Shown here piece after piece: positions 24,419-53,034 of a DNA stretch of 64,000 nucleotides. Below the pieces are notes generated by a model. The model had not been told where the DNA came from and did no database searches. It saw only the letters and a program-made list of their open reading frames with translations. The DNA comes from Gemmatimonadetes bacterium bin94 (lineage in GTDB: Bacteria > Gemmatimonadota > Gemmatimonadetes > Longimicrobiales > Gaopeijiaceae), in the NCBI GenBank assembly GCA_002238865.1, contig MPNE01000008.1, positions 62,001 to 126,000 of the forward strand. The letters run 5' to 3'. The stretch's first letter is position 1. Every line of letters begins with the position of its first letter. Made by a program: the position numbers and the translations under genes.

Positions 24419-25015
24419 TCATGAACCCCCCCGCGGCACCAGGCTGAACGGTTCGCGCGCGAACACCCGGCGCACCAACGGCTCGAAGAACTCCAGCGGC
24501 AGCGACTCGTAGTCGGGATCGAATGCGCACTGGTCCCAGCGGTGACAGAAGTCGACGGCGTCCTGATACCAGGGATGATCGCGGTACTTGTCGCGCGCGT
24601 TGCGGTCGCCACCGACGTGGTGGCCGTAGTAGTAGTACTGGAACAGGCCGTGGTGCCGGACGATCCAGTACGTTCGCTCGGTCACGTAGGGGCGCAGCAC
24701 CAGCGCAGCCAGCTCGCCGTGGCTGTGCGGGGCCAGCAGGTCGTCGATGTCGTGCAGGAGCGCCGCCACCACTATCTCCTCTTCCGCGTCGTCGCGATAG
24801 GCGCGGGTCGCGGTCTGCAGAGAATGCTCCAGCCGATCGACCTTGTAGCCGCCCATCGAGCCGGACAGCTCGCGGAGATGCGCCAACACCCGATCGGCGG
24901 TGCCGGCGGCGAACTCCTCCTCGAGGTGATCGAGCAGTTCGTAGTCCTCGCGGGTGCCGTCCGCCATGCTGGTGAAGCTGACCGTGGGACCGCTCGGCTT
25001 TGCCATGTCGTCCAT
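24419..25015 (-). CDS. HD-domain protein resembling TmpB/PhnZ-type mixed-valent diiron oxygenases
   Basis: LEHSLQTATRA, AALLHDIDDLLAPHSHGELAALVLRPYVTERTYWIVRHHGLFQYYYYGHHVG, HPWYQDAVDFCHRWDQCAFDPDYESLPLEFFEPLVRRVF. TmpB/PhnZ resemblance is by recollection, not search. Confidence 0.65.
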   Translation of the reverse strand: MDDMAKPSGPTVSFTSMADGTREDYELLDHLEEEFAAGTADRVLAHLRELSGSMGGYKVDRLEHSLQTATRAYRDDAEEEIVVAALLHDIDDLLAPHSHGELAALVLRPYVTERTYWIVRHHGLFQYYYYGHHVGGDRNARDKYRDHPWYQDAVDFCHRWDQCAFDPDYESLPLEFFEPLVRRVFAREPFSLVPRGGS

Positions 25016-25256
25016 GCTTGTCCCTATCGCAAATGAGGGCTCCTGGCCACGCAGCGTGTGTCGAAGCAGAGAGCCATGTCAAGGGCGGGACGCCTGAACG
25101 GGCCGGTGCCCGGTGCTTGACACGCGCAGGATGAGCGCGCCTGATACTCGGTAGCGTTTCGCGTGCGCTGCGCCTGAGGCTCAACGCACCGATGCCCGCA
25201 GCCACAGCGGCAACGCATGCTCCAGGCCGGTCGCAACGGACCTGAGGGGATCGACC

Positions 25257-25597
25257 ATGCATCACTCGATCAGCAGCATCGCGCAGAATGCCGACGCCCT
25301 GGCCGCAGTCTGGAGCGGTCGCGAAACGACCGATCTTCCCTACCTCTGGCTGCGCGACAATTGCGGTTGCAGCGAGTGCGGCGTCGGGGCGTCCGCGCGG
25401 GCGCTGAAGCGCAAGCCCGGCGTCGCACGGTTGGCGGGCAGATGGTCGCCGACCCCATTACGCTGACGCTGGCCACGCACCTGGCCGCCCGCAAGAACGC
25501 GCTTCCCGTCGACATTCACCTGTTCACCTTCGGCGGCCTGGCGGACGCCGCCGAATGGCTGTCGAGTTTGCGCACCGCCAAACCGGGAGGACGCTAG
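25257..25597 (+). pseudogene. Collapsed remnant: dioxygenase N-terminus fused to MetF-like C-terminus
   Basis: MHHSISSIAQNADALAAVWSGRETTDLPYLWLRDNCGCSEC matches 47745-47867; GVGASARALKRKPGVARLAGRWSPTP matches 49529 onward; frameshift (CCCCC to CCCC) near 25456, then VDIHLFTFGGLADAAEWLSSLR in another frame. Confidence 0.9.
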
Positions 25598-46659: not shown

Positions 46660-46907
46660 CACTCTTCTCCTTTCGTGCGGATTCCAGACCAGGGATGGCC
46701 CAATCGGACCTGGCTCAATACGCGGATCGGGGCGTTGTCCCCAAAAACAGAGACACGACGGGAGTGGAGACCCCGTCTCATCGCGGAGAGTCCAGCCTGT
46801 TGCACGGTTGACTGCCGGTGAGGGTCGGCGGATTACACCTCCTAACAGTACGACCCGGCGGGCTGTCAAGCAAGAAGATTCTGTATCCCGTCTCGTATCC
46901 CGCCGGA

Positions 46908-47473
46908 TGACCTCCGCGCGGATGAAGCAGCGCTCCAAGTCGCTGTAGACGCATCCGGCGGCCGCACGCGCCACCGTACCCCGCCGGATCGTCCAGGCGC
47001 GCACTTCGTCCGGCCCGATGGTGAAAAACGACACCAGCCCGTACGGACGAACCGCGCGAGCATGGGCTCGGAGAGTCCCAGGTCCTCCAAGAAACTCCGG
47101 TTGCTCCTCGGGCTTCAGGCTGGCGATTTCCGCCTCCACACTGGCCGATAGAACCATTGCCGCGCCCCCCATTGCCTTGACTTCGTCGGCCAGGGCGGGG
47201 TCGAGTTCCTCGGCGGCACGGTCCTCGTCATCGTTTCGAAGGCGTCGATTTCGCGCACGTCCGCGCGTTCCTTTGCGGGCACGGTCCAGACGCCGCTCCA
47301 CGACGGCCAGATCCGCGAGGACGCACTCGTCGTGGAAGGCGCGCAGGTCGCCGAGCGGGTCGGGGTCGCTGTCGAGCGCGGGGTTGAGGAAGTCCCGCAG
47401 GAGCAGGCATAGCGCCTCCCGGTCGCGGATCTCCCGCAGAGTTCTGGGTGACAGAACCCGTGAACCGCCACGC
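46908..47473 (-). pseudogene. Degraded partial copy of ychF-like GTPase (cf. 51994-53034)
   Basis: Long collinear match, e.g. [32 protein letters not shown] and [44 protein letters not shown]-terminal GTPase region absent, 121-bp internal deletion, frameshift and C-terminal truncation. Confidence 0.92.
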
Positions 47474-47599
47474 AGCGTGTGGAGAAACGGAGGACTCTGT
47501 CAAGGACGGGACGGCTGAGCGTGACCATTGCATGCGGCCTGGTACGCGCCCCACCCCGGAGTAGTGGGGGCCGGGCACCGGACGCCCCCGCCCGGGCCC

Positions 47600-47744
47600 G
47601 GTGCTTGACACACGCGGGCCAAGCGCACTTTGATACTCGTTAGCGCGCCGGTGCGCTGCGCCTGAGGCTCAACGCACCGATGCCCGGAGCCACAGCGGCA
47701 ACGCACGCTCCGAGCCAATCACAACGGACCTGAGGGGATCGACC
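47600..47744 (+). promoter_or_regulatory. Conserved leader upstream of dioxygenase, shared with 25117-25256
   Basis: CCCGGTGCTTGACAC...TGATACTCG.TAGCG and GCTGCGCCTGAGGCTCAACGCACCGATGCCCG.AGCCACAGCGGCAACGCA occur in both copies; TTGACA present, but spacing to TGATAC (19-20 nt) is not ideal for a sigma70 promoter. Confidence 0.4.
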
Positions 47745-48860
47745 ATGCATCACTCGATCAGCAGCGTGGCCCAGAATCCCGATGCCCTGTCCGCAGTCTG
47801 GAACGATGGCGCAACGACCGATCTTCCCTACCTCTGGCTGCGTGACAATTGCGGGTGCAGCGAGTGTCACGTCGTGCAGACCACGGAGAAGCGGTTCCAC
47901 CTCTTCCGGGTCCCCAGGGATCTGAAACCGCTGCAGATCAGCATCGAACGCGCCGGATCCGAGGACGAGGCGATCGCCATCGCCTGGACGGACGGACACC
48001 GCACCCGCTACCGGTCGAGCGAGATCCACGGCCTCCTGAGCCGGCCTCGATTCGAACTGCGCTACTGGAATGGCCGGTTCCAGCCGCGAAGGTTCGACTA
48101 CCAGCGATTCCTGGCGAGCGATCGCGCGGCGGCGGAGCTGATCGACGAGTTTCTGCGGACCGGGGTCTGCGTACTGGTCGACGCTCCCACCGAACCGGAT
48201 TCGTCGGAGCAGCTCGCGGCCCGCCTGGGCCCGATCCGCGAGGTGCTGTTCGAGCGCATCCACAACGTCAAGCTCGATCCGAAGGGCTACAACATCGCGC
48301 ACACGGGTCTGGCCGTCGCACCGCACAACGACTTTACCAGCTACACCTGGCCGCCGAACGTGCAGGCGCTGCACATGCTCGTGAACGAGTGCGAAGGCGG
48401 CGAATCCATCGTCGTGGACGGCTTCCGCCTGCTCAACGAGCTGCGGGGCGATCACCCCGACAAGTTCGACGCGCTGTGCGAGGTGCCTGTGCCGTTCCGC
48501 ATCTTCAGCGAAGAATTCGAATGCTACGCTGTCAACCCCATGGTCGAACTCGACAGCGACGGAGCCGTCAGGATGGTGCGCTTCAACACCGCGCAGATGC
48601 AGGCCGTTCCCCTGTCGGAGCCTCGGCTGGGCGACTTCTACGCCGCCTATCACGAGCTGTCCAGACGCGTCAATGCAGACAGCAACCAGGTTTCCTTCCG
48701 GTTGGAGGGCGGGCAGATTCTGCTGTGCGCCGGGCACCGGGTGCTGCACGGCCGCACGCCGCTACGGTCAAAGGGGCAGCGCCACCTGCAGGACGCCTAC
48801 TTCGAGCACGACAACGTGCGCACTCACCTGAGGCTGCTGCGCCTCGCCGGCCGGATCTGA
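47745..48860 (+). CDS. Gamma-butyrobetaine dioxygenase-like Fe(II)/2-oxoglutarate oxygenase (BBOX/TmpA-like)
   Basis: N-terminal Zn-type motif LPYLWLRDNCGCSEC; HND (HxD) in VAPHNDFTSYTWPPNVQALHML; distal RVLHGRTPL. Confidence 0.85.
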   Translation: MHHSISSVAQNPDALSAVWNDGATTDLPYLWLRDNCGCSECHVVQTTEKRFHLFRVPRDLKPLQISIERAGSEDEAIAIAWTDGHRTRYRSSEIHGLLSRPRFELRYWNGRFQPRRFDYQRFLASDRAAAELIDEFLRTGVCVLVDAPTEPDSSEQLAARLGPIREVLFERIHNVKLDPKGYNIAHTGLAVAPHNDFTSYTWPPNVQALHMLVNECEGGESIVVDGFRLLNELRGDHPDKFDALCEVPVPFRIFSEEFECYAVNPMVELDSDGAVRMVRFNTAQMQAVPLSEPRLGDFYAAYHELSRRVNADSNQVSFRLEGGQILLCAGHRVLHGRTPLRSKGQRHLQDAYFEHDNVRTHLRLLRLAGRI

Positions 48861-48892
48861 AGACCGCAGACCCGCGCCACCGGACGGACAGC

Positions 48893-49735
48893 GTGTCGGC
48901 CGCGCTCCGCGACCTGGCCCTCGGTGCCTCCGTGGAGGTTCTGGCGCGTCAGTTGCCGCCTGCGGAAGTTCTCGCCGGCCACCTCCGGCGCGGCACTGCC
49001 GTCTATTTGCCGTTTCCGCCAAAGGGCCGCTGGCCGGACACGATCGCCGCCTGCGAACGGGTGCTGGCGGCGGGCATGAGGCCGGTGCCGCATCTGGCGG
49101 CGCGCTCGGTGCGGAGCCCGGGCGAACTCGGCGACAGGCTGTCCGCGCTGGTGGAGACGGGCGTGGACTCCCTGATGCTGGTGGCCGGAGACCACGCCGC
49201 GCCCGCCGGCCCGTACCCCGATGCCCCGACCATGCTGGAATCCGGTCTGCTCGCCGACCACGGCCTCCGCCGGCTCGGTGTCACCTCGTACCCGGATGGG
49301 CATCCCCTGGTCGGCCCGGCCGATCTGGATGAAGCACTTCGGCGCAAAACGCAGTACGCCCGGTCGACGAGTTCGGATCTCTGGGTGGTGACGCAGTTCG
49401 TGTTCGCACCCGCTCCCGCTCTCGCCTGGCTCGCGCGGACGAGGGAGGCCGGTTGCACGCTGCCGGTCCGCATCGGGGTGCCGGGGCCCGTCGCGCTGCG
49501 CACGCTGATCGGATACGCGGTTCGCTGCGGAGTCGGGGCGTCCGCACGGGCGTTGAAGCGGAAGCCCGGCGTCGCACGGTTGGCGGGCAAATGGTCACCG
49601 ACCCCCATTGCGCGGGCGCTGGCCCGGCACCTGGCCGCCCGCGAGAACGGGCTTGCCGTCGACATTCACCTGTTCACCTTCGGCGGCCTGGCGGACGCCG
49701 CCGAATGGTTGTCGACTTTGCGCGATCCCTCCTAG
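48893..49735 (+). CDS. Short methylenetetrahydrofolate reductase (MetF)-like protein
   Basis: VYLPFPPKGRWPDTIAACERVLAAGMRPVPHLAARSV...VDSLMLVAGDHAAPAGPYPDAPTMLESGLL...HLFTFGGLADAAEWL. GTG start at 48893 proposed; closely follows the dioxygenase stop. Confidence 0.65.
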   Translation: MSAALRDLALGASVEVLARQLPPAEVLAGHLRRGTAVYLPFPPKGRWPDTIAACERVLAAGMRPVPHLAARSVRSPGELGDRLSALVETGVDSLMLVAGDHAAPAGPYPDAPTMLESGLLADHGLRRLGVTSYPDGHPLVGPADLDEALRRKTQYARSTSSDLWVVTQFVFAPAPALAWLARTREAGCTLPVRIGVPGPVALRTLIGYAVRCGVGASARALKRKPGVARLAGKWSPTPIARALARHLAARENGLAVDIHLFTFGGLADAAEWLSTLRDPS

Positions 49736-51036
49736 ACCGTCGCGTCCAGGCCCCGGGCCAGCGCCACCTCTCGTGCGCTGGGGTTAACGGAGGGTCGGAA
49801 GGGAACCTCGCACACCCGCGCGCGGTCCGGTCGGCCCGGCTCGGTCGCGTATTCGTCAGGCAGCCACACGGTGAGCTCCGTGCCGACGGCCGACTTCCCG
49901 GCGGGCACGTGCCCGAGCGCGATGTTGCAGCCCAGTTCAGGGGCGTGCCACGGCGACGTCAGGTAGCCGATCGGGTCGCCGCCGTGCGCATCCGACACGA
50001 GCCAGAAGTCCGGGGCGTAGTCGTCGATGGGCCTCCCGTCCAGCGTCATCCCCACCATGACCATCGCGAACGGCCAGCGTCCGGCGTCAAGCTCGGCCCG
50101 CTGGCGCTCCAGGGCGGCCCGCCCGATGTAGTCTCCCGCCTTCTCGCGCGGCACCTGGTAGGCCAGGTTGCACTGGAACGGACTTGTCTCATGGTCGATA
50201 TCCTGTCCCCACGAAAGGATGCCGGCCTGGATCCGGCGCTGGTGGCCCGGGGCGATGACCATCAGCCGGTGCGCCTCCCCCGCCTCGAGCACCGCGCGCC
50301 ACAGCTTCTCGGCGTGCAGGGTGGCGTCACGAAGATAGATCTCGTACCCCTTCTCGCCCGAGAACCCGGACTGGGACACCAGCACGGAACACCCCGCGAT
50401 TTCCGCCTCCAGGAGCCCGTAGTACGGGATGTTCCGGATGCGCGCGCCCACCAGGTCGGCCATGAGGTCGAGCGACCTGGGTCCCTGGATCTGCACGGGA
50501 CAGACATCGATCTCGTCGATCTCCACCTCCATCCGGAGCCCGACGTTCACGCCCTGCAGCCAGAACATGAGGTCGGAGTCGGCAAGCGAGAACCAGAACT
50601 CGTCCTCGGAGAGACGCAGCAGTATCGGGTCGTTGAGGATGCCGCCCTTCTCGTTGCAGAGGATGACGTACTTCGCGTGCATCGGCTCGATGCGGGTCGC
50701 GTCCCGGGTAATCACGTAGTCGGCAAACCGCTCCGCATCCGGTCCCCTGACCCGGATCTGCCGCTCCACCGCGACGTTCCACAGCGTGACGTCGCGCGTC
50801 AGCGCTTCGTGCTCCGCCGCCGCGCCGCCATCCTCGGGCCGCACGTAGCCGCGGGGGTGGTAGATGCGGTTGTAGACGGTGGCCCGCCAGCAGCCCGCTT
50901 CATGCGAGAGATGCCAGTAGGGGGACTTCCGTATGCGTGTGGAGATGAGCAGCTCGGTCGGCGTGCGACCGCTCTGGCGAAGGTTGATCGGGACGATCCT
51001 GTCGGACTGGTCCACGCTGGTCGGTTGATGGATCAT
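49732..51036 (-). CDS. DmdA/GcvT-like THF-dependent demethylase (aminomethyltransferase fold)
   Basis: SPYWHLSHEAGCWRATVYNRIYHPRGY...DVTLWNVAVERQIRVRGPDAERFADYVITRD...GGILNDPILLRLSEDEFWFSLADSDLMFWLQGV...VQIQGPRSLDLMADL. Start 51036 preceded by AGGAGGG. Confidence 0.8.
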   Translation of the reverse strand: MIHQPTSVDQSDRIVPINLRQSGRTPTELLISTRIRKSPYWHLSHEAGCWRATVYNRIYHPRGYVRPEDGGAAAEHEALTRDVTLWNVAVERQIRVRGPDAERFADYVITRDATRIEPMHAKYVILCNEKGGILNDPILLRLSEDEFWFSLADSDLMFWLQGVNVGLRMEVEIDEIDVCPVQIQGPRSLDLMADLVGARIRNIPYYGLLEAEIAGCSVLVSQSGFSGEKGYEIYLRDATLHAEKLWRAVLEAGEAHRLMVIAPGHQRRIQAGILSWGQDIDHETSPFQCNLAYQVPREKAGDYIGRAALERQRAELDAGRWPFAMVMVGMTLDGRPIDDYAPDFWLVSDAHGGDPIGYLTSPWHAPELGCNIALGHVPAGKSAVGTELTVWLPDEYATEPGRPDRARVCEVPFRPSVNPSAREVALARGLDATV

Positions 51037-51993: not shown

Positions 51994-53034
51994 CTACACG
52001 TTGAACAGCACGTGGATCAGCTCCCCGTCGGCCACCACGTAGTCCTTCCCCTCCACCCGCAACAGCCCCGCTTCCTTGACCGCCTGCTCCGATCCGTACT
52101 GCGCGAACACCTCATAGGGGATGACCTCCGCGCGGATGAAGCCGCGCTCCAGGTCGCTGTGGATGCACCCGGCGGCCGCACGTGCGACCGTGCCCCGGCG
52201 GATCGTCCATGCTCGCACCTCGTCCGGCCCAATGGTGAAGAAGGACACCAGGTCCAGCAAGCTGTACGCGGTGCGGATGAAACGCCCAAGCACGGGCTCG
52301 GACAGCCCCAGATCCTCCAGAAACTCCGGTTGCTCTTCGGGGTCCAGGCTGGCGATCTCGGCTTCCACGCCGGCCGACAGAACCATTGCCGCGCCCCCCA
52401 TTGCCTGAACCTCGTCCGCCAGCGCGGAGTCGAGTCCCTCGGCGGCCCGATCCTCGTCCACGTTCACTGCGCACACCAGCGGCAGGTCCGTAAGCAGCCC
52501 GTACCCTTTCGTGAAGCCCCGGTGCAGCTCGGTCCCCGAGAGCAGCCGCAGCGCCGTTCCCTGTTCCAGTGCGGCGGTCATCGTCTCGAAAGCGTCGATT
52601 TCGCGCACGTCGGCCCGCTCCTTGCGGGCACGGTCGAGGCGCCGCTCCACGACGGCCAGGTCCGCCAGGACGCACTCGTCGTGGAAGGCGCGCAGGTCGC
52701 CGAGCGGATCGGCATCGCTGTCGAGCGCGGGGTTGAAGAAGTCACGCAAAACGAGGCACAGCGCCTCCCGGTCCCTGATCTCCTGCAGGCTTCGAGCCGA
52801 AAGCACCCGTGATCCGGCGCCATGCTCGCCAGGGACGTCGCGGAGGTTGATGGTCGCATGGGTGGTCTTGCGGGGCGAGAAGACCCCGGACAGGAAGTCG
52901 ACACGCGGATCGGGCACGCGGACCGTACCCACGCGGATCTCTCCGCCGTATCCAACCGGTACGTTGAGGCCGGTCATGGCGTTGAACAGGGTGGTCTTCC
53001 CGGAGCCGGCAAAGCCGGCGAGGCCGAATCTCAT
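51994..53034 (-). CDS. ychF: YchF/OLA1-family P-loop NTPase
   Basis: GFAGSGKTTLFNAMTG P-loop; NVDE in place of NKxD; C-terminal [46 protein letters not shown] (TGS/DUF933-like). Confidence 0.88.
   Translation of the reverse strand: MRFGLAGFAGSGKTTLFNAMTGLNVPVGYGGEIRVGTVRVPDPRVDFLSGVFSPRKTTHATINLRDVPGEHGAGSRVLSARSLQEIRDREALCLVLRDFFNPALDSDADPLGDLRAFHDECVLADLAVVERRLDRARKERADVREIDAFETMTAALEQGTALRLLSGTELHRGFTKGYGLLTDLPLVCAVNVDEDRAAEGLDSALADEVQAMGGAAMVLSAGVEAEIASLDPEEQPEFLEDLGLSEPVLGRFIRTAYSLLDLVSFFTIGPDEVRAWTIRRGTVARAAAGCIHSDLERGFIRAEVIPYEVFAQYGSEQAVKEAGLLRVEGKDYVVADGELIHVLFNV

Follow-up and report, generated by a model that had tools for sequence, protein, structure and literature searches.

A putative quaternary ammonium catabolic gene set in a Gemmatimonadetes bacterium, with a DmdA-like protein as candidate tetrahydrofolate-dependent glycine betaine demethylase

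We examined a 64,000-nucleotide stretch of the genome of Gemmatimonadetes bacterium bin94 (contig MPNE01000008.1, positions 62,001 to 126,000; hereafter the window), in which three adjacent genes may contribute to the catabolism of quaternary ammonium compounds. The first (47745-48860, plus strand) encodes an iron- and 2-oxoglutarate-dependent (Fe/2OG) oxygenase of the BBOX/TmpA superfamily, recognized by Pfam and motif residues; the second (48893-49735, plus strand) encodes a short, 280-residue protein resembling the methylene-tetrahydrofolate (methylene-THF) reductase MetF, recognized by its match to the solved protein 7xg9; and the third (49732-51036, minus strand) encodes a 434-residue GcvT-fold protein resembling the dimethylsulfoniopropionate (DMSP) demethylase DmdA, recognized by Pfam, a tree and site residues. 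A preliminary description of the window had picked out the same genes, and its gene calls held: the CGCSEC, HND and RVLHGR motifs of the oxygenase are all present (C36/C38/C41, H194/D196 and H335); the MetF-like gene lies directly behind the oxygenase, with a probable GTG start at 48893, 32 bp past the oxygenase stop; and the DmdA-like gene, which starts at an ATG at 51036 preceded by AGGAGG, is convergent with it, overlapping by 4 bp at the MetF stop. Ratios of non-synonymous to synonymous substitution rates (dN/dS) against relatives were 0.11-0.30 for the three genes, indicating purifying selection; they are therefore no chance open reading frames (ORFs), and all three are real and intact. 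Beyond the genes first described, we found a gene for an HD-domain diiron oxygenase of the PhnZ/TmpB/MIOX kind (24419-25015, minus strand; identified by its diiron motif and homology), the scar of a second oxygenase-MetF copy (25258-25597, plus strand; identified by homology to the intact block) and, elsewhere in the genome, a gene for a dimethylglycine-oxidase-like flavoprotein (C71:9754-12297).

The DmdA-like protein matched GCV_T (2.5e-42) and GCV_T_C in Pfam, and scored below the equivalog cut-offs for both DmdA (256.6 bits vs 410, NF009133) and GcvT (153.7 vs 300, NF001567; 136.7 vs 235.85, TIGR00528). In a tree it formed a separate clade with haloarchaeal sequences (100/100), apart from the rows of DmdA (100/99), GcvT, Tdm-like and DMGDH proteins, which removes the objection that it might group with canonical glycine cleavage T proteins. 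The bacterial rows as a single group had weaker support (87/82), and the Acidobacteriota sequences were nested in the Gemmatimonadota subclade (100/99), pointing to horizontal transfer. The folate-binding residues, on whose retention the first proposal had depended, were kept: 27/27 rows of the clade have the Tyr, Asn-Asp and Glu that belong to the folate and catalytic site, as Y123, N135-D136-P137 and E232 in the window protein (Y95, D108 and E204 in P. ubique DmdA). Loss of the catalytic Asp from the N-D-P motif (D to N) was considered and rejected, because D96 of T. maritima GcvT maps to the second residue of the motif, which is kept. By these comparisons the protein is classed as neither DmdA nor GcvT. 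A scan of our genome collection found 67 DmdA-like loci (71-92% identity), mainly in metagenome bins of Gemmatimonadota, Acidobacteriota, Gammaproteobacteria, Nitrospinota and Spirochaetota. Several of the bin series, accounting for many of the bins, appear to be sponge-derived (e.g. Candidatus Palauibacter and the RHO/SB06xx series).

The top curated family of this protein is nonetheless DMSP demethylase, and among solved structures P. ubique DmdA (3tfh) is closest to it. A role in demethylating DMSP, supplied to sponge symbionts by algae or the host, would fit this kinship, but we consider such a role highly improbable. In addition to the sub-threshold score and the separate clade, three substrate-pocket changes are fixed in all sponge-type rows, with F225, R267 and W276 of the window protein replacing W/Y197, E238 and Y247 of DmdA (in the clade, Phe at P. 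ubique position 197 and Arg at 238 in 27/27 rows, Trp at 247 in 26/27). The residue described as DMSP-specific, W171 in alignment numbering (PMC7487153), seemingly equals P. ubique Trp197. Its absence alone cannot exclude DMSP because annotated Roseobacter DmdAs have Tyr at this position. The neighbours of the DmdA-like genes, moreover, are of dimethylglycine type, with no dmdB, dmdC or dmdD, and a closer DmdA homologue is encoded elsewhere in the genome. This homologue (402.3 bits vs the cut-off of 410) is on contig C45 (L086, 5831-11491), in a run of genes with a Tdm-like aminomethyltransferase and two related flavin adenine dinucleotide (FAD) oxidoreductases. The genome also holds a GcvT homologue on contig C63, and with these and the Tdm-like protein present, the DmdA-like protein of the window is not the housekeeping copy. 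Structure models were poor, with shallow alignments and a mean predicted local distance difference test score of 54.4 for the HD protein and 54.9 for the DmdA-like protein, and were given no weight; nor was a fold search with the latter, which placed DmdA and GcvT on top at query-normalized template modelling scores <0.41 and a root-mean-square deviation of ~16 A.

The oxygenase matched TauD (2.6e-36) and GBBH-like_N (1.1e-12). Its Fe ligands (H194, D196 and H335) and 2-oxoglutarate Arg346 are invariant in the alignment, and its N-terminal Zn residues are C36/C38/C41/H85. It had been called BBOX/TmpA-like, of which the superfamily and the Fe/2OG ligands stand, whereas membership of BBOX or TmpA proper does not: scores were 223.5 bits vs 414.75 for BBOX (TIGR02409) and 230.7 vs 400 for TmpA (NF049936), the top curated family. 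The aromatic trimethylammonium cage of human BBOX (Y177, W181 and Y194, together with Y205) is absent, these positions being occupied by F169, H173, H186 and F197. N183 equals human N191 and is Ser in two Spirochaetota rows.

The constant partner of this oxygenase is the PhnZ/TmpB-like HD oxygenase. Among 301 Gemmatimonadota genomes, the oxygenase was found in 32, the HD protein in 34, the DmdA-like protein in 32, the flavoprotein in 34 and MetF in 12; oxygenase and HD protein co-occurred in 32 genomes, oxygenase and DmdA-like protein in 31, and DmdA-like protein and flavoprotein in 31, while MetF was always accompanied by the oxygenase. Fisher tests for these pairs gave p values of 2e-13 to 4e-41, which overstate independence because the genomes are related. 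Oxygenase and DmdA-like genes were frequently on separate contigs, so linkage alone is no explanation for their co-occurrence. Thus, the expectation that the genes of the preliminary description recur together across genomes was borne out (oxygenase with DmdA-like protein in 31/32), while its three-gene unit was not, given that MetF is present in 12/32 oxygenase-bearing genomes and the HD protein in 32/32; MetF was dropped as an obligate member. When neighbouring genes were clustered, the oxygenase gene in most cases diverged from one for a 193-residue HD-domain protein, with a spacing of 127-353 bp in 28 of the 30 genomes measured; the two are on different contigs in one genome (G152), and in the window the HD gene is 22 kb from the intact oxygenase, beside the deleted oxygenase-MetF copy.

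The diiron motif of the HD protein (H64, H88-D89, H97/H99, H121/H122 and D161) is invariant in six sequences. The YxxE loop of TmpB and PhnZ, described with the tandem TmpA/TmpB pathway (PMC8177086), is absent from it, M-G-G-Y standing there instead, and a close homologue (L006) scored far below cut-offs (42.9 vs 214.6 bits for Phn-HD; 36.8 vs 300 for TmpB). Oxygenase and HD protein therefore fall, by the tests run, outside the TmpA/TmpB families; by analogy they may nevertheless act as a hydroxylate-and-cleave pair of that type. The pair might even be a TmpA/TmpB phosphonate pathway, releasing glycine betaine and phosphate from 2-trimethylammonioethylphosphonate of host phosphonolipids, which would be a special case of the cleavage step proposed below and no alternative to the demethylation that follows it. 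The same two enzyme types act in tandem there (PMC8177086), the product would be glycine betaine, and TmpA is the top curated family at 230.7 bits. We regard this as rather unlikely, however, as the TmpA phosphonate residues N187, N287 and R288 (PMC9296572) are kept only in part, with N187 aligning to N183 and N287-R288 replaced by Thr-Ala, the YxxE loop is missing, and the adjoining transporter in relatives is of the BCCT family, with no phosphonate transporter recognized. Relatives of the HD protein (44-56% identity) were found in Proteobacteria. On P. aeruginosa plasmid pF045_1, from a cystic fibrosis isolate (L164, 8881-14838), the HD gene lies directly behind a related oxygenase, and the two adjoin genes for choline uptake (choline-binding protein), choline dehydrogenase and aldehyde dehydrogenase, a neighbourhood that fits a betaine-type product of the pair. 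On other plasmids the HD gene has such diverse neighbours that they point to no one substrate.

The gene found most often beside the DmdA-like gene encodes an 842-residue flavoprotein. At the 39 DmdA-like loci flanked on either side by 4 kb or more of sequence, the flavoprotein was within 4 kb in 34, the oxygenase in 7, the HD protein in 8, MetF in 2 and a BCCT transporter in 4. The DmdA-like protein, MetF, oxygenase, HD protein and flavoprotein are encoded in a single block at one locus (L009), and at two Spirochaetota loci (L050 and L059) the ORFs of the HD and DmdA-like proteins share 4 bp. The flavoprotein matched DAO, FAO_M, GCV_T and GCV_T_C; among solved structures it is closest to dimethylglycine oxidase (466 bits) and to mammalian dimethylglycine dehydrogenase. 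His, His and Tyr residues align to His69, H225 and Y259 of dimethylglycine oxidase, which we take to be the FAD-linking residue and the catalytic pair, respectively; in architecture, FAD-His and catalytic His/Tyr, the protein thus has the features of a dimethylglycine oxidase or dehydrogenase. This constant pairing could mean that the DmdA-like protein is no demethylase at all but a folate-binding helper of the flavoprotein, or a methyl donor for methionine synthesis, and the GcvT fold does include folate-binding accessories such as YgfZ. We find this very unlikely, given that the flavoprotein has a GCV_T folate domain of its own, that Y123, D136 and E232 are kept in all DmdA-like rows, and that the MetF companions imply production of 5-methyl-THF.

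The MetF-like protein had no Pfam match and scored under the NCBIfam cut-offs; it aligned over 273 residues to the solved 5,10-methylene-THF reductase 7xg9 (7.8e-47, 163 bits), presumably a protein of Sphingobium SYK-6. A lost FAD/folate pocket had been named as a possible objection, and the AGD, YPxGHP and TQxxF motifs are retained (97-100, 133-138 and 167-171). The only Pfam MTHFR match in the genome is a bifunctional homocysteine S-methyltransferase/methylene-THF reductase on contig C78 (L161, 1324-3249). The predicted direction of the MetF-like protein is from 5-methyl-THF to methylene-THF. A MetF in the haloarchaeal regions described below would have a sensible role only where a methyl group is delivered as 5-methyl-THF. 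This favours a redox-neutral betaine demethylase, because the dimethylglycine and sarcosine enzymes yield no 5-methyl-THF and such a demethylase would; the methyl-transfer chemistry of DmdA as against DMGDH is established (PMC5395565).

The nearest relatives of the DmdA-like protein in a plasmid collection were haloarchaeal (57-67% identity), and we read eight of these regions. In Haloarcula marismortui, Halomicrococcus, Haladaptatus, Salinigranum, Halorientalis, Halobellus and Haloarcula marina, a short MetF was encoded within ~3 kb (7/7). These seven regions also held an 850-residue dimethylglycine-oxidase-like flavoprotein (6/7; two copies in five; 572 bits against dimethylglycine oxidase in Haladaptatus), a BCCT transporter (4/7) and, in subsets, genes for GlyA, FolD, Fhs, folate synthesis and a Ser/Thr ammonia-lyase. 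No BHMT or MttB was annotated in the haloarchaeal regions, and a Rieske oxygenase was present in one of them only. These genes can be read as a route from betaine uptake through dimethylglycine, sarcosine, glycine and serine to pyruvate, with the methyl groups leaving via THF. The DmdA-like protein becomes the candidate for the first step because the haloarchaeal regions offer no other, save the Rieske oxygenase of H. marismortui. In a marine alphaproteobacterium (L064), a DMGDH/SarDH-type gene comes directly after the DmdA-like gene, and sarcosine-oxidase-like genes follow as well. More distant contexts were seen as well. A plasmid of Lichenihabitans psoromatis (L177, 5091-11182) carries a DmdA-like gene from outside the clade together with MetF, FolD, PurU and an FAD oxidoreductase, likely a second THF-linked demethylation cluster, and plasmids of Loktanella and Phaeobacter (L166 and L176) share a fixed cassette in which a DmdA-like gene is joined by genes for an Lrp regulator, an OsmC-family protein, an enoyl-CoA hydratase and an acyl-CoA synthetase.

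The haloarchaeal and alphaproteobacterial neighbourhoods also bear on the possibility that the substrate of the DmdA-like protein is the hydroxylated onium compound itself, e.g. carnitine or hydroxy-gamma-butyrobetaine. Clustering of oxygenase, HD and DmdA-like genes in Spirochaetota, and co-occurrence of oxygenase and DmdA-like protein in 31/32 genomes, are what this would predict. It is unlikely in our view, because the constant presence of an HD oxygenase implies that a bond is cleaved once hydroxylation has taken place, and because the haloarchaeal and marine alphaproteobacterial DmdA-like genes lie, in the regions read, with dimethylglycine- and sarcosine-type enzymes and no oxygenase pair.

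We therefore lean, with a little over even confidence, towards reading the gene set as one for quaternary ammonium catabolism in which the DmdA-like protein would be a cobalamin-free, THF-dependent glycine betaine demethylase. From the observed gene content, homology, residue conservation and co-occurrence we infer the substrates, the directions and the order of the steps. Uptake would be through a BCCT-type betaine transporter and a TonB receptor, both encoded by adjoining genes in relatives. The Fe/2OG oxygenase would then hydroxylate a trimethylammonium precursor and the HD oxygenase would cleave beside the new hydroxyl to give a carboxylate, most likely glycine betaine, as modelled on the action of TmpA/TmpB on 2-trimethylammonioethylphosphonate. 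In the third step the DmdA-like protein would pass a single methyl group of glycine betaine on to THF in a redox-neutral reaction, giving dimethylglycine and 5-methyl-THF without cobalamin. The MetF-like protein would oxidize 5-methyl-THF to methylene-THF, and the flavoprotein encoded on C71 would strip the next methyl group or groups directly as methylene-THF. The third step is the best supported and the precursor in the second the least. The preliminary description had an onium substrate hydroxylated and then demethylated onto THF, with MetF oxidizing the product; the theme and the enzyme classes survive. In place of an order in which one compound is hydroxylated and then demethylated, we prefer hydroxylation, oxidative cleavage and then demethylation of betaine, because the demethylase is so constantly accompanied by a dimethylglycine-oxidase-like enzyme.

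Several observations weigh against this route. The dedicated MetF is absent from 20/32 genomes with the oxygenase. The F/H/H/F cage of the oxygenase is not of the classical trimethylammonium type, leaving its substrate unsure. The H. marismortui cluster has a GbcA-like Rieske oxygenase (132 bits, cut-off 670) that could perform the betaine step there, and Haloarcula sp. GH36 (L172) and two gammaproteobacterial loci (L011 and L022) have no betaine genes nearby. Finally, GbcA and BHMT were looked for in the haloarchaeal regions only. In favour of the route, on the other hand, no MttB-family protein (PF06253) was found in the bin94 genome, which is 97.5% complete.

Three systems are known to start betaine demethylation, namely GbcAB, BHMT and MtgBCD, the last a cobalamin enzyme (PMC12478193). 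The proposed enzyme would share their net step, and with MtgBCD and MetF2 also the fate of the methyl group (5-methyl-THF, with a dedicated MetF), but would consist of one GcvT-fold protein without cobalamin, Rieske centre or homocysteine. In the same study, no protein of Ruegeria pomeroyi was induced more strongly by betaine-type substrates than a MetF paralogue (PMC12478193), an observation that fits the proposed oxidation by MetF. DmdA itself shares the sequence family, folate site, N-D-P motif and expected redox-neutral transfer of an onium methyl to THF, and differs in clade, score, pocket and neighbours as set out above. LigM/DesA with MetF, from aryl-methoxy catabolism in Sphingobium SYK-6, likewise joins a GcvT-fold THF demethylase to a dedicated short MetF of the 7xg9 type; here, however, onium instead of aryl-methoxy chemistry is expected, and the LigM score of the DmdA-like protein is only 38 bits. 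TmpA/TmpB and PhnY/PhnZ share the side-by-side encoding of an Fe/2OG hydroxylase and an HD diiron oxygenase, whereas the window oxygenase has BBOX-type Zn cysteines. In SAR11, a DmdA-like gene beside metF (SAR11_1265) and a GcvT-like gene near a betaine transporter (SAR11_1303) have been given speculative roles, postulated to involve betaine for the latter (PMC3160333). The DmdA-like/metF association is thus not wholly new, although no oxygenase pair was described there, and the likeness to the clade of the DmdA-like protein is one of description. We found no THF-dependent GcvT-family betaine demethylase in the open-access literature, nor any named system with this grouping, which the preliminary description had likewise not recognized as one.

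More tentatively, and with somewhat less than even confidence, we suggest that the DmdA-like clade represents a fourth means of removing the first methyl group from glycine betaine, by a cobalamin- and oxygen-free single GcvT-fold protein spread by horizontal transfer among haloarchaea, marine Alphaproteobacteria and, in several phyla, sponge symbionts; in the symbionts a new Fe/2OG and HD pair may supply the betaine by cleaving a host compound, possibly at a C-C and not a C-P bond. As an osmolyte, glycine betaine abounds in the sea and in brines. Haloarchaeal dimethylglycine oxidase genes near BCCT transporters were reported in 2011 with no first-step enzyme (PMC3102087), a gap that the clade, if the proposal is true, would fill. 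It would also account for genes that in many genomes carry the annotation 'glycine cleavage T protein' or 'aminomethyltransferase', and would link sponge-derived methylated nitrogen to symbiont one-carbon metabolism. One study reports carnitine from sponge tissue and considers it a possible substrate for symbionts (PMC9999580), though in another study carnitine pathways were not enriched in sponge bins (PMC8163846). The route is directly testable, as the haloarchaeal orthologues come from culturable species.

The window also retains traces of rearrangement. In the scar at 25258-25597, oxygenase codons 1 to about 43-45 are fused to the MetF tail, with ~1.65 kb deleted. The region upstream of the intact oxygenase (47467-47744) also occurs upstream of the scar (25046-25257; 80-87% identical); the deleted copy with its retained upstream region (25046-25597) is 80-91% identical to the intact copy. 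The common upstream region is the HD/oxygenase intergenic region and a likely promoter. The intact block is flanked by copies of a YchF-type GTPase gene, one decayed (~46905-47467) and one intact (51994-53034), which are 82-87% identical. The simplest reading of this arrangement is a segmental duplication or relocation followed by loss.

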